IMG/VR virus record: IMGVR_UViG_3300025889_001117
Coordinates: 1-21,388 of that record
Reading direction: 5' to 3' (one strand)
DNA: 21,388 nt
Origin: a virus
The notes under the pieces were generated by a model. It was not told the DNA's origin. It worked only from the letters and a program-made list of their open reading frames with translations, and searched no databases. Of this stretch, positions 2,970 to 21,388 are shown piece by piece. Position 1 is the stretch's first letter, and each line of letters begins with the position of its first letter. The position numbers and the translations under genes were made by a program.

Positions 2970-3539
2970 ATGAATCGACCTAAAACAAATTTCGGCCAGA
3001 CACAAGAGACAGACCAGAAAAAACAAATGATTGAACGGGGAATTATCCTGATCAATCAAAACTTCACGGATGATTTACTGGATTACGCGTACTTCGCTAT
3101 CCACCAGATCATGGAGAACCGGTATCTGGACAGCATCAAGGTTTATATCAACAGCAATGGCGGGCAGGTATCAACCCTATTCCCGCTTTATGATCTTTTA
3201 ATCAGCGCAGGAAAGCAGAAACCGGTTGAAACCTACATCACAGGGAAAGCCTATAGCGCAGGCGCAATTCTCGCCTTAGCAGGAGGAAAACGCTTCGCGC
3301 ATAAGCACAGCATGATTCTGCTGCACGAGGTTTCAGACAATTTCGGATACCAGAAAAACACGCAAATTCAGCACGAGGCAGAATGGATCAACCAAATCAA
3401 CGAATCTCTTAAGCAAATCATCAAGGACCGGACAAAGATGACAACCGCCCAAATAGAGCAATACATGGGAAGCAATACAGACATTTTCATCACAGCGCAA
3501 CAGGCCAAGAAATACGGGATTATCACACAAATTATCTAA
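2970..3539 (+). CDS. ClpP-like serine protease
   Basis: This is a 189-residue member of the ClpP/crotonase-fold proteases. The Ser-His-Asp triad is intact: S96 in the nucleophile elbow GKAYSAGAIL (usual family pattern GxASSMGA), H119 in MILLHEV, and D171 in NTDIFIT before the typical TAQQAKKYGII ending. The oxyanion strand YINSNGGQV (59-67) is also clear. The N-terminal about 20 residues are polar and may be a flexible segment. In phages this family often serves as the prohead (capsid maturation) protease. Here it is not between portal and capsid genes but 3.5 kb before terL, so a separate role, such as degrading or redirecting host proteins, is also possible. Hairpin-rich non-coding intervals flank it on both sides. 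No cognate ATPase is encoded here. Confidence 0.88.
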   Translation: MNRPKTNFGQTQETDQKKQMIERGIILINQNFTDDLLDYAYFAIHQIMENRYLDSIKVYINSNGGQVSTLFPLYDLLISAGKQKPVETYITGKAYSAGAILALAGGKRFAHKHSMILLHEVSDNFGYQKNTQIQHEAEWINQINESLKQIIKDRTKMTTAQIEQYMGSNTDIFITAQQAKKYGIITQII

Positions 3540-5827: not shown

Positions 5828-6090
5828 CCAAACTAGAATACATCAAACAGAAGTGCGCTGAGGCACGCTTAGAGGCAATAGGAGAGCCAGTCTATCGCCT
5901 CGCCGACGTTCTGATGGCGATAGGATTAAAAGGAGTAGCTATTATGGGTACAGGTGAATTTTATAATGAACGATTCGGGCAAATAATGAGAGCAGGCGTT
6001 AGGTGGAACCTTCTCTTATCCCTAGACGACCAGAAGCCAGAGGTTCACGACTTTATCGCGAATGTTTTGGGGTATGAAGACCAAAAATAA
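5824..6090 (+). CDS. 88-residue phage hypothetical protein
   Basis: The protein starts MTKLEYIKQKCAEARLEAIG and continues with YRLADVLMAIGLKG. After a loop it has WNLLLSLDDQKPEVHDFIANVLGYED. The pattern, helix, LADVL helix, then WNL with a Gln and a helix near the C-terminus, is one I associate with small hypothetical proteins of many phages; no activity is known to me. The start is fixed by the ATGA overlap with the preceding membrane gene. A longer reading from 5785 would overlap that gene by 43 bases and was not used. Its end overlaps the next gene by 17 bases. Confidence 0.65.
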   Translation: MTKLEYIKQKCAEARLEAIGEPVYRLADVLMAIGLKGVAIMGTGEFYNERFGQIMRAGVRWNLLLSLDDQKPEVHDFIANVLGYEDQK

Positions 6091-6310
6091 GACACAGGAA
6101 ATGCCCCCCAAGCCTGATTATGTTGGGACAGATGAGTACAAAAAGTTCTTGCTCGACACCCAAAAACACATCCACCAAGCCCAGCTAGAGCTTCTTGAGG
6201 AGGTGATTGATACTTATGTTACAGTTTTCCCGCCAAAAGAAGATTCAACACTGAAAGCTGATATGGCTGGTTATGCCTTAGAGGGAGGTGATCATAGAAA
6301 TGACGGCTGA
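6074..6310 (+). CDS. 78-residue hypothetical protein
   Basis: The protein starts MKTKNKTQEMPPKPDYVGTD. An amphipathic helix follows at residues about 15-45 (EYKKFLLDTQKHIHQAQLELLEEVIDTYV), then an acidic tail. No family was recognised. An upstream ATG at 6062 is possible, but the ATG at 6074 is used as the one closest to the end of the preceding gene. The last codons contain the strong Shine-Dalgarno of the next small gene. Confidence 0.55.
   Translation: MKTKNKTQEMPPKPDYVGTDEYKKFLLDTQKHIHQAQLELLEEVIDTYVTVFPPKEDSTLKADMAGYALEGGDHRNDG
6284..6293 (+). promoter_or_regulatory. Perfect Shine-Dalgarno sequence
   Basis: GGAGGTGATC is fully complementary to the usual 3' end of bacterial 16S rRNA. 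GGAGG ends 11 bases before the ATG at 6300. It is the only strong ribosome binding site I see in the window; nearly all other starts have AT-rich leaders. It decides the start of the 36-residue gene. Confidence 0.65.
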
Positions 6311-6410
6311 TTCATTTAACGAGATTTCTAAGTTCGCGCCCTATGAAAAAGGTGATACTGTTAAGATTACCGATGGTGCACGGCAGACAATCGCATTTAA
6401 GTTAAGATAA
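6300..6410 (+). CDS. 36-residue hypothetical protein with strong RBS
   Basis: The protein starts MTADSFNEISKFAPYEKGD and ends in QTIAFKLR. A short helix is followed by a probable beta-hairpin (GDTVKITDGARQTIAFKL). It is included because a perfect 10-base Shine-Dalgarno lies at the correct distance and because it fills the gap before the terL promoter. It overlaps the end of the preceding gene by 11 bases. Function is unknown; it may be part of a longer SH3-like motif family, but at this length that cannot be shown. Confidence 0.5.
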   Translation: MTADSFNEISKFAPYEKGDTVKITDGARQTIAFKLR

Positions 6411-6415
6411 AACCA

Positions 6416-6424
6416 TGCTATACT
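6416..6424 (+). promoter_or_regulatory. Extended -10 promoter candidate before terL
   Basis: TGCTATACT (6416-6424) is an extended -10 with a good hexamer TATACT. The hexamer TTTAAG lies 17 bases upstream but is a weak -35. The expected start is near 6430, at the base of the hairpin that precedes the terL ATG. The same TGCTATA core occurs at 2722. Confidence 0.45.
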
Positions 6425-6431
6425 AAAGGAA

Positions 6432-6456
6432 ACACCCGTTGCAGGCGGGTGTTTTT
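6432..6456 (+). terminator. Intrinsic terminator abutting the terL start codon
   Basis: ACACCCG (6432-6438) pairs with CGGGTGT (6446-6452) around the loop TTGCAGG. T follows at 6452-6456, and the ATG of terL comes immediately after. The core CCCGTTGCA..GGCGGGT is repeated at 7956-7973. It ends transcription of the small-gene operon, or acts as an attenuator for terL if the promoter candidate just upstream is real. Confidence 0.7.
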
Positions 6457-7884
6457 ATGTTGATACCTACTTACGCGACCCCCAAAACCGATAAAATCCT
6501 GCAAATCTACTCTTTCAAAACGAAAGAGGGGCTTCTTTACAATGACATGATTACTCCTTGGCAAAAGGTAATCATGGAGACGATATTGACGCGCAAGGCC
6601 CCGGACGGGAGCGGCAAAAACAGAATCCACATCATGGCGCATACCCGATACGGGAAGTCTCTGGCTGTGGGTGCGGCTGTTGCTGTGAGAGCCTCCTCCT
6701 GTTCCGAACCTTGGGTTATTCTTGCCGGCACCAAAGAACAGGCCCAGATTATCATGGATCACGTTATTCAGTTCGTCACCAATGACCCTTTAATGCGCTC
6801 TATGTTGGTCCAGAGCGCAGATAACATCATCAAAGACCAAAAGAAGCGAACATACATCACATTCGCGAATGGGGGCAGTGTGCGCGCATTTACGACCGGC
6901 CCGGACGGGGACGCTGTCATGGGCCAGGGCTGTAAGAACGTGATCCAGGATGAATCGGCCCTGGTCTCAGACAACGCCAACTCAAAGGTTGAGCGTATGC
7001 TTGGTGACGATCCGCACGACAATTTTCTTGTAAAAATCGGGAACCCTTTCAACAACAACCATTTCAAACAGGCATACAAAAACGAGAATTATTTCCACAT
7101 AAATATCGATTACAGGGTGGGGCTACACGAGGGGCGACTAACAGAACAATTTTTGGCTGAAAGACGTTCTCAGCCTAACTTTTCAGTGCTTTATGAAAAT
7201 CTTTTCCCAGATGATGAGGCCGCGGACCAACATGGTTATCTCCCCTTGATCACACAGGCTACGCTTGAAAGGGCTATGATCGACGGTGATTCTGTTCAGA
7301 AGGTAGGTACTCCACTTGGTGGGGCTGATCCAGCGGACGGCGGTAGTAACGAGGCCGTGATCTGCAAGAGGTGGATGAATGTAGCAGAAATTGTACTCAG
7401 AACAACAGAAATGGACTCTGTCTCATTTGCGACACCTGTCGCGCATGAGACAAGGGATTGTTTCCAGGTTGGCATTGATGTCGTAGGGGTTGGCTCCGGC
7501 ACTTACAACACGCTCAAATATCAGCAAGGAACAAAGGAAAGAATGATTCCCGTCCGGTCCGGTGAACCGGTTCCAAAAGACATTGAAGACCGCGATCTCT
7601 ACAAAAACCTCCGCGCATATATCTTTTGGCAAGTGAAGACTTGGTTAGAATCTGGCGGAAGGTTGGTCCGGTCTGAGGTGTGGAAGGGGTTGCTTGATGT
7701 TCGATACAAGACAAGCGTGGATGGCAAAATTCAAATCATCAGCAAGGACGAATTAAAGAAATATTATCAAGTGGATGATCTTGGTGTGCCTGATGCTCTT
7801 AGTTTGACCTTTGCTCCGAGGAGGAAAGTTTACACAGCTAAGGGTCCAGTTGGAGGAGTCAATCCGTTGGGGGGAGCAGTCTAG
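6457..7884 (+). CDS. terL: Terminase large subunit (packaging ATPase/nuclease)
   Basis: This 475-residue protein is the motor that pumps DNA into the prohead and cuts concatemers. The ATPase domain holds a Walker A-like P-loop, HTRYGKS (62-68), and a Walker B, NVIQDE (161-166), whose glutamate is the catalytic base. The RNase H-like nuclease half has acidic residues at the expected places: D291 in GADPADGGS, D341 in VGIDVVGVG and D446 in GVPDALSL. The length is normal. An earlier in-frame ATG at 6439 lies inside the terminator hairpin, so ATG 6457 is used. The gene is separated from terS by seven small genes. It ends one base before the second promoter-like module that precedes the portal. 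Confidence 0.95.
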   Translation: MLIPTYATPKTDKILQIYSFKTKEGLLYNDMITPWQKVIMETILTRKAPDGSGKNRIHIMAHTRYGKSLAVGAAVAVRASSCSEPWVILAGTKEQAQIIMDHVIQFVTNDPLMRSMLVQSADNIIKDQKKRTYITFANGGSVRAFTTGPDGDAVMGQGCKNVIQDESALVSDNANSKVERMLGDDPHDNFLVKIGNPFNNNHFKQAYKNENYFHINIDYRVGLHEGRLTEQFLAERRSQPNFSVLYENLFPDDEAADQHGYLPLITQATLERAMIDGDSVQKVGTPLGGADPADGGSNEAVICKRWMNVAEIVLRTTEMDSVSFATPVAHETRDCFQVGIDVVGVGSGTYNTLKYQQGTKERMIPVRSGEPVPKDIEDRDLYKNLRAYIFWQVKTWLESGGRLVRSEVWKGLLDVRYKTSVDGKIQIISKDELKKYYQVDDLGVPDALSLTFAPRRKVYTAKGPVGGVNPLGGAV

Positions 7885-7887
7885 CCC

Positions 7888-7944
7888 TTGACAAAAAACA
7901 AAAACAGATCGACCAAGAACGGCCCTCAAAAAATACTGTATGAT
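7888..7944 (+). promoter_or_regulatory. Promoter-like module, copy 2
   Basis: TTGACA (7888-7893), TCGACCAAGAA (7909-7919) and the -10 TATGAT (7939-7944) match the copy at 2674-2730 with a constant offset of 5214 bases. The preceding AGCCC is also shared. It is the main candidate for the promoter of the portal-capsid operon. The predicted start near 7951 coincides with the base of the following hairpin. Confidence 0.5.
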
Positions 7945-7950
7945 GGAAGC

Positions 7951-7980
7951 ACAAACCCGTTGCAAAGGCGGGTTTGTTTT
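7951..7980 (+). terminator. Terminator 1 before portal
   Basis: ACAAACCCG (7951-7959) pairs perfectly with CGGGTTTGT (7969-7977) around the loop TTGCAAAGG, followed by TTT. The hairpin is a close relative of the one before terL (shared CCCGTTGCA and GGCGGGT). It terminates terL transcripts or attenuates those started just upstream. Confidence 0.75.
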
Positions 7981-7983
7981 CAT

Positions 7984-8008
7984 TCCCGCCGCCGCGCGGG
8001 ATTTTTTT
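7984..8008 (+). terminator. Terminator 2 before portal
   Basis: TCCCGC (7984-7989) pairs with GCGGGA (7996-8001) around a six-base GC loop, then a run of seven T (8002-8008). It stands in tandem with the preceding hairpin. The portal ATG at 8017 follows after eight bases. Confidence 0.75.
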
Positions 8009-8016
8009 GTTCAAAA

Positions 8017-9723
8017 ATGGACTACTCAGAAAAAGCAAAACTAGCTCTAGAGAAATATCAGGCCGAAAAGCCTGCTGCTCTTGAGTATCAGCAACGCAGA
8101 CATCTTGATTGGACGGAAAACTACCTGCTCTACCGCAACCGCGTGGCAATCAACCGCCTTACTCAGCGTCAGGAGGTAAGTATTCCCCTGATGAAAGAGA
8201 CCATCAGGACCATTCTGGCCAAGATCGACGAAGACCCAGACGTTTATTTCGAAGACTTGGGCGGAGATTTAGACAAAGAGATCGTTATTAACGAGCTTTT
8301 CGAGAACTTCAAGAAAGAGAATCAGATCAGCCTGCTTGATCGTGTTGACAAGAAACAGGTCATGCTCTACGGCCGAAGCCACAGGAAACTGAACTGGGAC
8401 GGGGAAAAAGTGACTTTAGAGCTGAAAGATCCGTTTGACATCTTGGTTGATCCAAAAACCCTCCCTTACGACATCGACAGTGCGCGATTCATCATCGAAA
8501 CGGGGATATTGAAGCCCCTAGAGGAAGTTATCCACGACGAACGATACGACCAAGAAGCAAGGGACTTGCTCAAAGAGCGATATACGCCAAACCAGACCAA
8601 AGGAGAAGTCATCACTTCAAGAACAGAGCAGGAGCAACAGGATCGAGACGAGCGAATGACGCAAATGGACGTTGACAGTGATCAGAATTTCGCGGGGTCA
8701 GAGATTATCTTATCGCTTGATCAGCACTTTACTTACCTTTGGGAAGAAGAAAAAAAGGAATACGTCCGTTATGTCTCAGTTATCGCTGATTCCGACGTGG
8801 TTCTGTCTTGTAAACCACTCAAAGAAGTTCTTGGCGTAGATAATTTCTGGCCTTTTGAATCGTGGGCCGACGATTTGGAGGCAACAGACTACAACAGCGA
8901 CGCGGTGGCCGACATTATCCGGCAGCCCAACAAGATCATCAATACATGGCTATCACAGGAGATCGAAAACAGGACATTGGCGAACTTCGGCATGAACTTC
9001 TATGACAGCACGATTGAAGGATTTGAGCCTGTTGCTTGGGACCCGCGCCCGTTTGGGTGGTATCCGTTGCCAGGAAAGCCTAGCGAGGTGCTTGAGCGGG
9101 TAAACGTAGCCCCGTTTCCGGGCAACATGGAATCAATCAATTACTTGATCGGACTTGTTGAGAAGGCCACAGCATCAGGCGCAGTTGAGAAGGGATCTCT
9201 TTCGGATGAAAAACGAACCCTTGGTGAGATTGAAATTACGGTGGCAAAAGCAATGGAGCGGATCAATAGCATGACACCGTTCTACCGTCTGTGCTGGCAG
9301 AGAACGGCCGAGAAGTGGCGACAGATCATGGAAGCGAACGTTGATAACAAGAAAAAATTCAAGCTCTACAAAAAAGGTTATGACGGTCGCATGCAGGAGG
9401 CGGTCATAAAAAAGAGCCAGTGGACTTCGAAGAAAGGCTTCCGTGTCCGCGTTGAGAACAAGCGTCAACGAGAAGCTGAAGACGCAAACGAATTGAATAA
9501 CATGTTCGCGATTCAGCAGAAGATTCCAAACAACCCTCCACTTGATGCAGCAATCCGAAGAAAAGCCCTGAAAACTTTGGGCCTCAGCCCGGAAGAGATT
9601 AGGGAAATCGACGAGTTCGAGAAGAAGAAGGCCGAAGAGATGAGGAACGCCCCGCAAGCAGGTCAACAGTCTAATCCAATGAATCCGGCAGGACCATTAC
9701 CGGCCCAGCCTATACCCGTCTAG
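8017..9723 (+). CDS. Portal protein
   Basis: The product is 568 residues and forms the dodecameric portal ring at the capsid vertex through which DNA passes. The family call rests on the position after terL, on the length, and on the general pattern. There is an N-terminal helical stretch (residues 1-60), an IPLMKETIRTILAKIDEDP segment, alternating strand segments around 90-300 and a long helical crown/stem region (NKIINTWLSQEIENRT). The C-terminus is rich in Lys, Glu and then Pro/Gln. It resembles the P22/T7-like podoviral portal group more than the HK97 group. The same frame is open upstream to 7888, but that part would cover two terminator hairpins, so ATG 8017 is used. A two-base gap (TAG-AT-ATG) joins it to the next gene. 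Confidence 0.88.
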   Translation: MDYSEKAKLALEKYQAEKPAALEYQQRRHLDWTENYLLYRNRVAINRLTQRQEVSIPLMKETIRTILAKIDEDPDVYFEDLGGDLDKEIVINELFENFKKENQISLLDRVDKKQVMLYGRSHRKLNWDGEKVTLELKDPFDILVDPKTLPYDIDSARFIIETGILKPLEEVIHDERYDQEARDLLKERYTPNQTKGEVITSRTEQEQQDRDERMTQMDVDSDQNFAGSEIILSLDQHFTYLWEEEKKEYVRYVSVIADSDVVLSCKPLKEVLGVDNFWPFESWADDLEATDYNSDAVADIIRQPNKIINTWLSQEIENRTLANFGMNFYDSTIEGFEPVAWDPRPFGWYPLPGKPSEVLERVNVAPFPGNMESINYLIGLVEKATASGAVEKGSLSDEKRTLGEIEITVAKAMERINSMTPFYRLCWQRTAEKWRQIMEANVDNKKKFKLYKKGYDGRMQEAVIKKSQWTSKKGFRVRVENKRQREAEDANELNNMFAIQQKIPNNPPLDAAIRRKALKTLGLSPEEIREIDEFEKKKAEEMRNAPQAGQQSNPMNPAGPLPAQPIPV

Positions 9724-11285: not shown

Positions 11286-12374
11286 ATGGACAGTTTCGCA
11301 ACAGCATTGGCGGAGAAATTCGCCTCCCGCGCACTCGAAATCTTTTTCGAGGAAGCGGTAACCCCAATGATCACCAATACTGATTATGAGGGGGAAATTA
11401 GGGATAAAGCATCCCGCCTGAACATTCTTACTCTGGATGAAGATCAGGGGATTCAGAACTATAACGGTTCTGATCTGACAATGGGTAACGTTGAGGAATC
11501 AGAGGCCACCCTCGTTACCGACCAGCAGAAAGCCTACTACTTCGGCGTTAAAAGTCTTGATAAATTCAAGTCTTATGTCGAAGACCCAGCTAACGCAGTC
11601 ATGGCTCGAAAAGCTGGAGAACTGCAGGAAGAAGTCGATTCTTACGTCCTTGGCTTGCATGGCGACGTTGCCGCAGGTAACCGCGTAGGAACCGACTATA
11701 CCACGGGAACAGTTACCGTAACCGTTACCACCGGAGCAGTCACAGGAAGCGGAACGACCTTTACCGCGGCAATGGTTGGCAAGCCGTTCAAGGCTGCTGG
11801 TCACACCAAGTGGTACCGCGTGAAGTCCTACGCTTCCGCTACTTCAATCGTGATTGAAGACGACAGCGACGACCTCACAAGTGCCTACACAGGTGGTGCG
11901 ATCGGCGCAGGTGCTTCTTACACAATCCAGGCAGCAACCGCCCTGCAGGTTACAAAATCCAACATCTACGCAAAGATTGTTGAGCTTCGCACAAAACTGA
12001 ACCAGAGCAAAACCCCTAAAAAGGATCGTTGGCTCGTGGTTCCGGCTGATATCGAAGCTCTCTTGCTCAATGCGCCTGAATTTACTCGCGCGACAGATTC
12101 TGACACAGAAATCATCAAAAATGGTTTCATCGGACGAGTCGCGGGGTTTGATGTTTACAGCAATGAACAGATTGCTGGAGACAGCACGGACGGTTTCCAT
12201 GTTCTGGCTGGTCACAAATCAGCGATTACTTTCGCGATGGCCTTCACGGAAAGCGAAATCGAACCTTTCTTGAAAGGTAATTTCGGGAAAGCCTACAAGG
12301 GCTTGAACGTCTACGGAGCGAAAGTTATCGACGAACGTCGAAAGGCTCTCGCGGAAGGATTCTGGAAGTTATAA
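11286..12374 (+). CDS. Major capsid protein (HK97 fold)
   Basis: This 362-residue protein builds the capsid shell. The N-terminal helix-rich part (residues 1-30) and the strand-rich core (from VEESEATLVTDQQKAYYFGVKS to VDSYVLGLHGD) fit the HK97-fold pattern. So do the A-domain-like end (KTPKKDRWLVVPADIEALLL, VAGFDVYSNEQIA) and the final strands (NVYGAKVIDERRKALAEG). Residues about 136-217 (Thr/Gly/Val-rich, TVTVTVTTGAVTGSGTTF and ATSIVIEDDS) look like an inserted beta-sandwich domain, as seen in some phage capsids. No N-terminal cleavage motif is obvious, so whether the ClpP-like protease acts on it is open. The position after the scaffold supports the call. The ATG follows a tight hairpin. 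Confidence 0.9.
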   Translation: MDSFATALAEKFASRALEIFFEEAVTPMITNTDYEGEIRDKASRLNILTLDEDQGIQNYNGSDLTMGNVEESEATLVTDQQKAYYFGVKSLDKFKSYVEDPANAVMARKAGELQEEVDSYVLGLHGDVAAGNRVGTDYTTGTVTVTVTTGAVTGSGTTFTAAMVGKPFKAAGHTKWYRVKSYASATSIVIEDDSDDLTSAYTGGAIGAGASYTIQAATALQVTKSNIYAKIVELRTKLNQSKTPKKDRWLVVPADIEALLLNAPEFTRATDSDTEIIKNGFIGRVAGFDVYSNEQIAGDSTDGFHVLAGHKSAITFAMAFTESEIEPFLKGNFGKAYKGLNVYGAKVIDERRKALAEGFWKL

Positions 12375-16598: not shown

Positions 16599-17297
16599 AT
16601 GAATTTTGGAGAATTTAGAACAAACCTACTTGACTCACTAAGTGTTTCGGCTAGTGACGTATTCTTTTCTACAGATTATCTCAAGCGTGTGGTAAATAGA
16701 GGCATTAAGTGGGCGGCTGGTCTCTATGATTGGCCACACACAGAGAGTGCTGTTATTAGAGATAGCGAAGCTGGTCAGGAGTACGTCAACATCCCTGAAA
16801 ACTTCAAGAGGGATAGTATTACACACGCAGTTTACGATGGGAAACATTATGAATATGTCAACTGGGAAGACTATCAGATTTATAAAGAGAATGAAGGTGT
16901 AAACGCGACGGATAAAAACTGTAGCGATTACGGAAACAAGCTGTTCTTTAACCCAACGCCATCATCAACGATTGTTGGTGGTATTGAGATTTTTGGTCAT
17001 GCAATTCCATCTGATTTAACGGGTGATTCAGATGTAACGATCTTTCAGGGTGATACAGAGATCGAAGAAGCGATTTTAAAGTGGTGTGAGGCTCAGTGTC
17101 TCAAAAAACAGCGTGGAAGCTACTTTAATGCGGGTGTCGCGCAAGAAGAGTTGGCTAAAAAAGACCTAAGTATTATTTGGGATAAAATCGCTAAAAAGCA
17201 GTCGAAATATAAGAACAAGGGCCGTAATATGTTTAATCCCGTTGTAATTACCCGGCGAGGTTCTGGGTACAAAACGGGGTCATTTAGAAGTTGCTAA
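16599..17297 (+). CDS. Head-tail adaptor (connector) protein
   Basis: This is a 232-residue protein. The N-terminal half has helices (FFSTDYLKRVVNRGIKWAAGLYDWPHTES), then a strand-rich insert ending ITHAVYDGKHYEYVNWEDYQ. The C-terminal half has a helical segment (IEEAILKWCEAQCLKKQRG, EELAKKDLSIIWDKIAKKQ). The VNRG..WAAGL.DWPHTE pattern is shared by the adaptor proteins I know from podoviral modules (gp6-like). Such proteins form the ring below the portal and link it to the tail. It ends in a basic, disordered stretch. The junction is TAG-ATAT-ATG with no Shine-Dalgarno. Position after tail genes and before the ejection proteins is consistent. Confidence 0.75.
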   Translation: MNFGEFRTNLLDSLSVSASDVFFSTDYLKRVVNRGIKWAAGLYDWPHTESAVIRDSEAGQEYVNIPENFKRDSITHAVYDGKHYEYVNWEDYQIYKENEGVNATDKNCSDYGNKLFFNPTPSSTIVGGIEIFGHAIPSDLTGDSDVTIFQGDTEIEEAILKWCEAQCLKKQRGSYFNAGVAQEELAKKDLSIIWDKIAKKQSKYKNKGRNMFNPVVITRRGSGYKTGSFRSC

Positions 17298-17303
17298 AAA
17301 AAT

Positions 17304-19595
17304 ATGATTATTCCACCAAACCTAATACCAACCGGTGTAAAAGCTGTAACTAATCTATTTAAAAAGGATCGAAACAGAGACCCTATTTTGGGTGGTGATA
17401 GATTTGTTCAGATAGCAGATACAGCGGGGAAAGCTCTTGATGTGGCTGGATCAGTTGCAGATAAAATAAAACAGATACCCGGCTATGATGCAGCAACTCG
17501 AGCATATACTCCGTTATTACTTGGAACAAATGCCGTTCAAACTGCTCGCGATATAAAGCAGTCAATCCCTCAGCAAAATCCTACACCAGTGAAGCAGGCT
17601 ACATTTGTTCTACCTGATGGTAGCAGGGTTGCGGCCCCAGTGGACTCACCACAGGCACCAGCCCCCGGTGGCCAGGATCAAGGGTTTTATGGGCAAGACT
17701 TTCAGGGGGATGTGATCAATCCTCAGTACCAACCACAAGGACAAACAGGGCAAGGAGCTTCCGCGACATCTATAGACCCAAATACACCTTATGCAGAGCT
17801 TATTGACGCGGCAGCGCGCGCGGGTCTGTCTGTAACGGATTTTCTATCGCTTTATGGTGCCCAGAACGCCCCAACACAGCAAGATTATGAAGGAATCCGC
17901 TCAGAGCTTGGTATCCCTGACCTGGTTGATGATGTTTTTCGTCGGCCGTCATTGGACGCTCAGGCTATCTTTGATAACGCATTCAAAGAGGCTCGGTTGC
18001 CAGAGCTAAGAGAGAAAATTACCCAGATTGACGCAGAAATCCAAAAAGCGCGAGATCAGCTAAAAGAGGCAATAGGCCAAGAGAATAATAACCCCTTCAT
18101 TAGCGCACAGTCTCGATCTCTGCGAATCAGAAACATTCAGGACCAGGCGGAGGCTACGATTGCCAACCTCGAGAACCAGAGAGGCTCATTGGCAGACCTT
18201 TATAATACCGGCCTTGATCAGGTAGAGGGTGTGGTGACAAGGGCCACAAGTACAGATGAGAATACCAGGATCAGGTCCGCGGAACAGCTCAACTTCCTAC
18301 TACAGGAGGCAGAGAGACGGTTCGGCGCACTTGGGGCGGAATCAGAAAGAGAGGCGTTGCGATACGTTCCTGATTTCTTGAAGAGAAGCATTGAAGAGTC
18401 CCAGAATCAGCCAATGACCGCAGAAGAAATCTTGAAGCTCGAAAACCAAAGACTTACTAATGAAAAGCTCCGAGCCGAAATTGATGGAACGGGTAGGGCT
18501 AGTTTCGGCGACACCTCCTCTCTCAGAAAAGAGTTTCTTGCGCGTCCTGAAATCAAAAATTGGCAGGAGATTGACCGATCTTATTCCGCAATGCAAGAAG
18601 CATATACCCTGGCAGAAAATGGCGACAACGGTCCAGCTCGCGATGCCCTCATTGTATTGTTCAATAAAATGCTTGATCCGGGGAGCGTTGTTAGAGAAGG
18701 AGAATTTGCCCGAACCGCGGAAGGACAATCAGTCATCCAGCAGGCTTTTGAAAGCTCAAAACGACTTGTTCAGGCCGGTGCGGGTATCGATACAGCGACA
18801 CTCAAACAGGCTCTTGGTGTAGCTGAGGCCCTTTACCAAGCAGGGCAGCAGTCTTACTTCGAGGTTGCAAATGAGTATGTCGACCTGGCAAATCAATTCG
18901 GAATCGATCCTCGTAATGTAATTGGATCGAGAGCTGCTCTCTACGACGACGATATTCAAGACCCTTTATTGAATGACCTGAGCACGTCGTTAAACGGCTC
19001 AAACCAGATCGGAGAACTGTCTGAGAGGTATGAATCGAAGGGTGATCCCGGGGCTATCGGATACGACAGCACAGGGGGATATTCGTATGGGGTTTATCAG
19101 CTCGCCCACAGCAATGCTAAAGATTACGTTGAACAGTCACCGTTTGGGCAATTGTTCGCTGGCCTGAGGTTTAATAGCCCCGAGTTCCGCCAGAGATGGC
19201 AAGAGGTTGCGTCGCAGTATGGGGATGAGTTTGCACAGGACCAGAAACAATACATCCAGAGAACACACTTCCAACCACAGGTTGAGAAGATCAAGTCCGC
19301 GGGTTTTGATTTCAGCAAGGCTACTCCTGCTTTGCTTGATGTGGTCTGGTCTACAGCCGTTCAGCATGGCCCTCAAACAGACATTGTTGTGAAGGCGATT
19401 AAAAAAGCGGGTCCAAATGCGACAGAAGAAGAGTTAATCAAAGAAATTTACGCACAACGCTGGGCAGGAGGGCAAGGGTTTGCAAGCAGCACACCAGAGG
19501 TCAAGAAATCCGTTTATAACAGGTTCTTTGGGGAAGGAGGGGAGCAAGCCCTCGCACTAAACAAATCAAGATCATTCAATAGAAGAACCGCTTAA
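17304..19595 (+). CDS. Internal virion/ejection protein with lysozyme-like C-terminus
   Basis: This is a 763-residue protein. The N-terminal about 90 residues are helical and amphipathic. Residues 91-165 are rich in Pro, Gln and Gly. Charged helices with coiled-coil character follow (about 225-300, KITQIDAEIQKARDQLKEA) and continue to about 540. Residues about 574-750 form a lysozyme-like hydrolase: SERYESKGDPGAIG with E577 as likely catalytic acid, then YSYGVYQLAH, a helical core, LDVVWSTAVQHG, and a last LIKEIYAQRWAGGQGFASSTPE segment. Such domains in virion proteins cut the peptidoglycan locally so DNA can enter. The protein is probably carried in the virion and ejected. It is followed by a four-base gap and another long ejection-type gene. 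Confidence 0.75.
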   Translation: MIIPPNLIPTGVKAVTNLFKKDRNRDPILGGDRFVQIADTAGKALDVAGSVADKIKQIPGYDAATRAYTPLLLGTNAVQTARDIKQSIPQQNPTPVKQATFVLPDGSRVAAPVDSPQAPAPGGQDQGFYGQDFQGDVINPQYQPQGQTGQGASATSIDPNTPYAELIDAAARAGLSVTDFLSLYGAQNAPTQQDYEGIRSELGIPDLVDDVFRRPSLDAQAIFDNAFKEARLPELREKITQIDAEIQKARDQLKEAIGQENNNPFISAQSRSLRIRNIQDQAEATIANLENQRGSLADLYNTGLDQVEGVVTRATSTDENTRIRSAEQLNFLLQEAERRFGALGAESEREALRYVPDFLKRSIEESQNQPMTAEEILKLENQRLTNEKLRAEIDGTGRASFGDTSSLRKEFLARPEIKNWQEIDRSYSAMQEAYTLAENGDNGPARDALIVLFNKMLDPGSVVREGEFARTAEGQSVIQQAFESSKRLVQAGAGIDTATLKQALGVAEALYQAGQQSYFEVANEYVDLANQFGIDPRNVIGSRAALYDDDIQDPLLNDLSTSLNGSNQIGELSERYESKGDPGAIGYDSTGGYSYGVYQLAHSNAKDYVEQSPFGQLFAGLRFNSPEFRQRWQEVASQYGDEFAQDQKQYIQRTHFQPQVEKIKSAGFDFSKATPALLDVVWSTAVQHGPQTDIVVKAIKKAGPNATEEELIKEIYAQRWAGGQGFASSTPEVKKSVYNRFFGEGGEQALALNKSRSFNRRTA

Positions 19596-19599
19596 ATAT

Positions 19600-21388
19600 A
19601 TGGCCACACAACAAATGACAATTGAACAGATCGGCAAAGCCTACAAGGAAAAAAATCCGGGCCGATTCGACGGTTTCTCGGATCGAGAGGTTGGAATCAC
19701 CATGATTCAAAGGAAGCCCGAACTCAAAAACATTGTGTCTACAGAGCGGGCTTCGGTTTCTACCCCAACAGAAGAACTAAAACCATTCCGTCAGAACGTA
19801 GACGAATACCTTAAAGACTTCAAGATCGGTGCACTGAAGGGGATTGTTTCAGACGTAAAAGGTGCATCTAGTATCGGAGAGCGAACATTAAATTCCATTC
19901 TACAAACGGCCCTACCACGTTCAGCAGAAAGGGCTATCGGTATCGATGAAGCCCCAAACTTGGGTATTGTGGGCCGTCAAAGGGGCGGAGAGACTTCAGC
20001 GGCACAGCTTCAAGCGGATGTTGAAAGCCGTTTTGGTTTGAGAGAAGGGGCATTAACAACCGCCTCAAATCCGGCCCAAAGAACGGGAATGATGACAGAA
20101 CAAGTTGCAGGGTTCCTTCTGCCTGGCAGTGCAGGTCTGCGCGCAGGTCGCGCGGCTGAAACCGCCCTCAAACTGAGAAATGTTCCTAAATGGCTCCAGA
20201 TAGCCGGCCGAGTCGGAGGAACCGCGGCAGTAGAAGCTGGGGCCGGGGGCGGGGTAACCGCGATCCAGGAAGGCGAAATCAACTCAGACGTTATTAGTAA
20301 TGCCGTTGTTGCCGGCACACTTCCTATCGTTTTTGCAGGAGCGAGTGCTGCGCTGCGACCTGTCCAGAAGTTTTTATCAGAAAAACTACCTTCAAAAATG
20401 ATTAACAACTTGATCAGGCCAGGGAAAAATGACTTCAATTTTGGTAAAAACCCAGGACAGGCTGTTGTTGACGAAGGAATCACAGCAAATAGCCGAGAGG
20501 GTCTACTAAAGCAAATTCGAGACAAGAAGGATGAGATCGGTGCAATCAAAGGTGACGCCCTAGACGCTGTTCCAGAGGGTATCAACATTGACATCGCTCC
20601 GCTCCTAACCCCTATTGATAACGCGATGGAGCAGGCTGTGAAAAGTGGTGAAAGAAACCTGTTTTCACGGCTTCAAGACCTCAAGGACGGATTGACAAAG
20701 GAGTTTAGTGTTGTGGATGGAAAGCTGGTTACAGGTGGTGACAAAAGCCTCATTATGACACCAAAACAAGCAGATTTGCTCAAACAGCAGATCGGCAATG
20801 ATACGAAATGGACAGGACAGGCTTTTGACAATGACATCAACAAGGTGCGCCGAGACCTGTATTCGCGAATCAATGATGCAATTGATGAAGCAGTTGGGCC
20901 ATTGGGGGAGACTGGTACAAGAATTAAAGAGTTAAATCAACGCTGGGCGAACATGCTTACTGCGGAGAAAGCCCTAGAAAATAGAATTGCGGTTGAGGTG
21001 CGGAACAATATGATTAGCCTACAGGATACGGGGGTGGGCGTAGGGGCTGGGATTGCGTCAGTTGCCTCTGGTGCGGGTGCACCACAAGCTATATTAAACA
21101 GCCTTACCCTCATCGCAGGCAGAAAGCTAGTTAAAAGCACGGCTGTCTCAACGCGCTTAGCTCAATATCTAGAAAAATTAGCCCCAACTGATCGTGATAA
21201 TTTATATGCTTCTAAAGTAAACCCAATTGCTACTTTCCCAGGAGTTGGTGTTGTAGCTTATGGTCAGAAAACATTACAAACAAAAGCATCAGCTCTTGAT
21301 CGTGTTAACGTTCGTAGATTGTTAATTAACTTAAAAAGATTTGTAGGTGGTGTTGGCGAAACATTAGTATTTGAACAAAACACTGCTG
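19600..21388 (+). CDS. Ejection-type virion protein, 3' part replaced (partial)
   Basis: The frame runs open to the right edge (over 596 residues). Residues 1-526 fit a large ejection/internal virion protein: helices with basic ends, and Ala/Gly/Val-rich segments at about 205-255 (GRVGGTAAVEAGAGGGVTAI, VVAGTLPIVFAGAS) and about 465-495 (GVGVGAGIASVASGAGAP) that could insert in a membrane. The final helix STAVSTRLAQYLEKL resembles the near-C-terminal helix of similar phage proteins. After residue about 526 the sequence switches to a tail-sheath C-terminal domain that does not belong to this family. The start ATG follows AAATAT. The true end of this gene is not in the window. Confidence 0.7.
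   Translation, partial: MATQQMTIEQIGKAYKEKNPGRFDGFSDREVGITMIQRKPELKNIVSTERASVSTPTEELKPFRQNVDEYLKDFKIGALKGIVSDVKGASSIGERTLNSILQTALPRSAERAIGIDEAPNLGIVGRQRGGETSAAQLQADVESRFGLREGALTTASNPAQRTGMMTEQVAGFLLPGSAGLRAGRAAETALKLRNVPKWLQIAGRVGGTAAVEAGAGGGVTAIQEGEINSDVISNAVVAGTLPIVFAGASAALRPVQKFLSEKLPSKMINNLIRPGKNDFNFGKNPGQAVVDEGITANSREGLLKQIRDKKDEIGAIKGDALDAVPEGINIDIAPLLTPIDNAMEQAVKSGERNLFSRLQDLKDGLTKEFSVVDGKLVTGGDKSLIMTPKQADLLKQQIGNDTKWTGQAFDNDINKVRRDLYSRINDAIDEAVGPLGETGTRIKELNQRWANMLTAEKALENRIAVEVRNNMISLQDTGVGVGAGIASVASGAGAPQAILNSLTLIAGRKLVKSTAVSTRLAQYLEKLAPTDRDNLYASKVNPIATFPGVGVVAYGQKTLQTKASALDRVNVRRLLINLKRFVGGVGETLVFEQNTA
21179..21388 (+). other. Tail sheath C-terminal fragment joined in frame (likely chimera)
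   Basis: Residues after the junction read TDRDNLYASKVNPIATFP, then GVGVVAYGQKTLQTKASA, LDRVNVRRLLINLKRFV and TLVFEQNTA. This is the conserved C-terminal core of contractile tail sheath proteins (T4 gp18 family), including RDNLY, GVVAYGQKTLQ and ALDRVNVRRLL. The codons are distinctly A/T-ending, unlike the upstream gene. The junction is near 21165-21185. No other sheath sequence and no myovirus gene is present. An assembly join with another phage is the simplest explanation. Confidence 0.85.

Follow-up and report, generated by a model that had tools for sequence, protein, structure and literature searches.

The last open reading frame (ORF) of the phage sequence analyzed here combines two segments that clearly have different sources, and the 3' end of the contig is very probably chimeric, reflecting a technical join rather than a real gene fusion. 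The analyzed stretch (hereafter the window) is a whole IMG/VR virus record, a linear sequence of 21,388 bases, such that the end of the window is also the end of the contig. Its terminal ORF begins with an ATG at 19600 and remains open as far as the final base of the contig, encoding 596 residues without a stop. The first-pass annotation had described this ORF as a podovirus-type ejection gene fused to the C-terminus of a myovirus tail sheath, a description that holds for the assembled letters but most likely not for any phage. The relevant features are as follows:

16599-17297, + strand: SU10-type adaptor protein (PF24175, E=1.8e-9), which adjoins the lysozyme-domain gene in relatives too
17304-19595, + strand: upstream neighbor of the terminal ORF, 763 aa, with a C-terminal VgrG3-like/lysozyme-type domain (PF21277, E=3.4e-43)
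19600-21173, + strand: native podovirus part of the terminal ORF, about 523 residues, a predicted virion protein with a mostly helical model, 3' end missing
21171-21180, + strand: junction zone, from the likelihood scan and alignments, with AAAATTA at 21174-21180
21174-21388, + strand: slice of a T4-type tail sheath gene of another phage, from DNA identity, sheath profiles, the T4 gp18 match, and foreign codon usage

Within the ORF, only residues 521-596 recover tail sheath profiles, phrog_10581 (E=8e-18) and phrog_23 (E=3e-14), the first 523 or so residues showing no sheath similarity, and residues 512-578 of the 659-residue T4 gp18 align to the end of the ORF (E=1.4e-8). By the phrog_10581 and gp18 matches, the end of the ORF contains the conserved C-terminal sheath segment of the T4-type tail sheath, with 21174-21388 encoding the equivalent of that stretch of gp18. 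The same residues are matched in more than 2,300 phage records, and the named proteins among the matches listed are mostly tail sheaths. Thus, these searches agree, well above any chance level, with the first-pass annotation in assigning the last 70 or so residues to a T4-type sheath, and the profile searches, together with a DNA break at 21174, uphold its division of the ORF into a sheath end and an unrelated start. Its identification of the piece as the sheath C-terminus has to be corrected: about 75 more sheath residues follow in relatives and are missing here because the contig stops. Intact sheath genes carry about 450 residues before the segment and these 75 after it, whereas the window has only about 71 residues of such a gene with both ends missing; a complete sheath gene (about 590-660 residues) is absent from it. 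The window piece hence differs from the T4-type tail sheath family (gp18; PHROG 23 and 10581) in lacking the N-terminal 450 or so residues and the final 75. The record also differs in being devoid of tube or baseplate genes: as had been claimed from the letters, a scan of the 17 other window ORFs uncovered no sheath, tube, or baseplate gene.

The transition between the two segments is abrupt at the DNA level. The best DNA matches to the end of the window are the intact sheath genes of three IMG/VR contigs (L002-L004), which are 91.4% identical over 210 bases from 21174, whereas identity to sheath genes in the 74 bases upstream of that position is at chance level (24/74). In a two-rate likelihood scan, the switch falls at about 21171-21178. 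The string AAAATTA, seven bases common to the window and its sheath relatives, is all that both sides share at the join, and the podovirus part has no word of 18 bases or more in common with the tested myovirus relatives. The change in base composition that had been noticed at the junction is substantial: the last 72 codons have a GC3 of 0.125, whereas the rest of the window averages 0.49 and never falls below 0.19. These codons also score a log-likelihood of +32 for myovirus codon usage versus the window's own, while none of 930 stretches of equal length elsewhere in the window exceeds +6.8 (mean -41). It is this DNA break, combined with the foreign codon usage and GC3, that points to two sources.

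On the sheath side, we found 53 IMG/VR loci with the segment. An ordinary sheath lies directly upstream of it in 51 of these, typically with the motif AEWFAPAG followed by RGGL, and the remaining two begin inside the segment; the fusion is seen in 0/53. By profile, the ORF of L004, one of the best DNA matches, encodes a sheath of full length (phrog_23, E=6.9e-72, residues 5-597). A 24-mer from the sheath segment retrieved 24 further contigs, none closer than 91%, and a protein scan of IMG/VR for the fusion returned sheath loci only. Neither the 20-mer just before the join nor a 23-mer from the podovirus side had a match. As a separate observation, the stop-to-stop frames of the sheath relatives fall into two size classes of about 595 and about 702 residues (seen in L012, L022, L028-L031, L033, L037, L040, and L044).

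As for the podovirus part, IMG/VR contains relatives of the window's terminase, portal, capsid, adaptor, and lysozyme-domain genes, the best records being 23-36 kb in length; the terminase, portal, and capsid proteins are about 45-67% identical to the nearest relatives found. The adaptor and lysozyme-domain genes are parts of one podovirus module, with relatives of the latter present in 7 of 15 records. The order of adaptor, lysozyme-gene homologue, and next gene is kept in five records (L081-L085), and in a sixth (L086, a bacterial MAG contig), where an adaptor was not seen, the homologue comes after a relative of the lysozyme gene. In all six, the gene at the same position as the terminal ORF stands alone, with 579-760 residues and a stop of its own. 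Homology to residues 1-520 is detectable for two of these six (L086, 38% identity over 212 residues; L085, 25% over about 450 residues), the other four being assigned by position and weak alignment only. Sheath profiles match none of the six, and phrog_23 went undetected in all 15 related records, several of which are short fragments, in a search that was positive for 2 of 14 control genomes. We recovered no close podovirus relative covering the native gene end from IMG/VR or the GenBank phages, and one distant relative of the gene is in the bacterial MAG contig. The first-pass annotation had named the same fused protein in related phages as an observation that would speak for a genuine gene; none emerged from the 53 sheath loci, the six same-position genes, or the 15 related records.

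Some of these neighbors have features of their own. The gammaproteobacterial MAG contig JAUVDT010000067.1 (L061/L086) carries adjacent relatives of the lysozyme-domain gene and the podovirus protein, which may hint at the host group. The L085 homologue (5942-8221, - strand, in IMGVR_UViG_3300025087_000234) is 760 aa long and possesses an extra C-terminal region with the motif YHGTDSKSA and no Pfam match, which, we presume, recalls ADP-ribosyltransferase-like domains. Elsewhere in the window, an RtcB-type RNA ligase gene is found at 845-2023 (PF01139, E=1.2e-123), and a gene for a ClpP-like head maturation protease (2970-3539; phrog_94, E=1e-31) does not adjoin the capsid gene but precedes the terminase genes. 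Residues ~138-223 of the major capsid protein (11286-12374; phrog_267) match the tail-fibre-type PHROGs phrog_2712 and 1980, which suggests an inserted fibre-like domain. Its relatives in L055-L057, with 66-67% identity over nearly the whole protein, have the fibre-like stretch too.

The "ejection-type" label that had been given to residues 1-526 is plausible but tentative. In its favor is the position of the ORF in the virion gene module, after the adaptor and lysozyme-domain genes in an order shared with relatives. Against it, residues 1-520 have no match among the PHROGs and none in the GenBank phage set, and their only Pfam hit is a sub-threshold one to FliD_C. More generally, no similarity to a characterized ejection protein was detected in Pfam (above cutoff), PHROGs, NCBIfam, or the PDB. 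AlphaFold2 gives residues 1-523 a mostly helical structure with a mean pLDDT of 47.8, an unreliable model of too low confidence for a fold search. This region therefore resembles podovirus internal/ejection proteins in the gene order of L081-L086 and in its mostly helical model, and differs from them in the missing profile or PDB match and the low pLDDT. From gene order and this low-confidence model, it is plausibly an ejection or internal protein.

Of the two options raised by the first-pass annotation, a chimeric contig end is strongly favored and a real recombination much less so. A technical rather than a biological origin of the join is what we infer from several observations. The foreign piece is only 215 bases long, lacks both gene ends, and forms the very end of a linear contig; the fusion is absent from every examined relative of either parent; and a 7-base string is shared at the join. 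Under this proposal, bases 1 to about 21173 would derive from a podovirus-type phage and the last 215 bases from a sheath gene belonging to another phage, an AT-rich T4-type myovirus probably co-occurring in the sample. The two would have been joined at or beside the AT-rich AAAATTA, either in library preparation, by template switching or ligation, or in assembly. The frame would have been kept by chance, so that a gene caller reports one long protein, whereas the real podovirus gene would run on to its own C-terminus and stop. Seven shared bases are fewer than the usual k-mer overlap of an assembler. Should the join be an error, its source would be somewhat likelier to be a chimeric read or fragment than a pure graph error, because the podovirus part and the tested myovirus relatives have no word of 18 bases or more in common. 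Mixed contigs are described in the assembly literature (PMC7299287), and in amplification chimeras priming commonly occurs at 2-21 matching bases (PMC1855051). The window shares with such contigs and microhomology-primed chimeric reads (PMC7299287, PMC1855051) the joining of unrelated genomes at a few common bases and a short foreign piece at the contig end.

Two points run counter to a chimera: the reading frame continues through the join, which chance would produce in one case out of three, and the exact donor strain was not found by the 24-mer search of IMG/VR, the closest sheath being 91% identical. The former would also suit a real illegitimate recombination in a co-infected cell, which would have placed a sheath fragment onto the podovirus gene in either a viable phage or a dead-end molecule, and such recombination can likewise use an AT-rich microhomology of seven bases. 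We nevertheless regard it as improbable: no relative of either parent has the fusion, and a sheath slice without both gene ends could not make a sheath. Moreover, the join falls right at the end of a contig, the region in which errors accumulate, and one dead-end molecule by itself would seldom reach an abundance that allows assembly. That the sheath-like domain is instead native and functional in the podovirus protein, as an established fusion in this lineage, is more doubtful still, with only the open frame in its favor. The sheath profiles match neither the six same-position genes nor the 15 related records, and the codon usage of the segment is foreign. The segment is also 91% DNA-identical to a myovirus sheath, at odds with the far lower identity of the window's terminase, portal, and capsid proteins to their nearest relatives. 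A literature search, limited to titles, found none describing a fusion of a tail sheath with a podovirus ejection protein.

The apparent fusion most likely corresponds to no real gene and should not be annotated as one; the contig should be trimmed at about 21173. As an artifact, the join is a matter of curation only, with the terminal 215 bases to be removed. Left untrimmed, the record may be annotated with a "tail sheath" despite its podovirus-type genome and assigned the wrong tail type, or may propagate a false ejection-sheath fusion family. Were the join a true recombination, it would testify, unusually, to illegitimate recombination between phages that differ in tail type.
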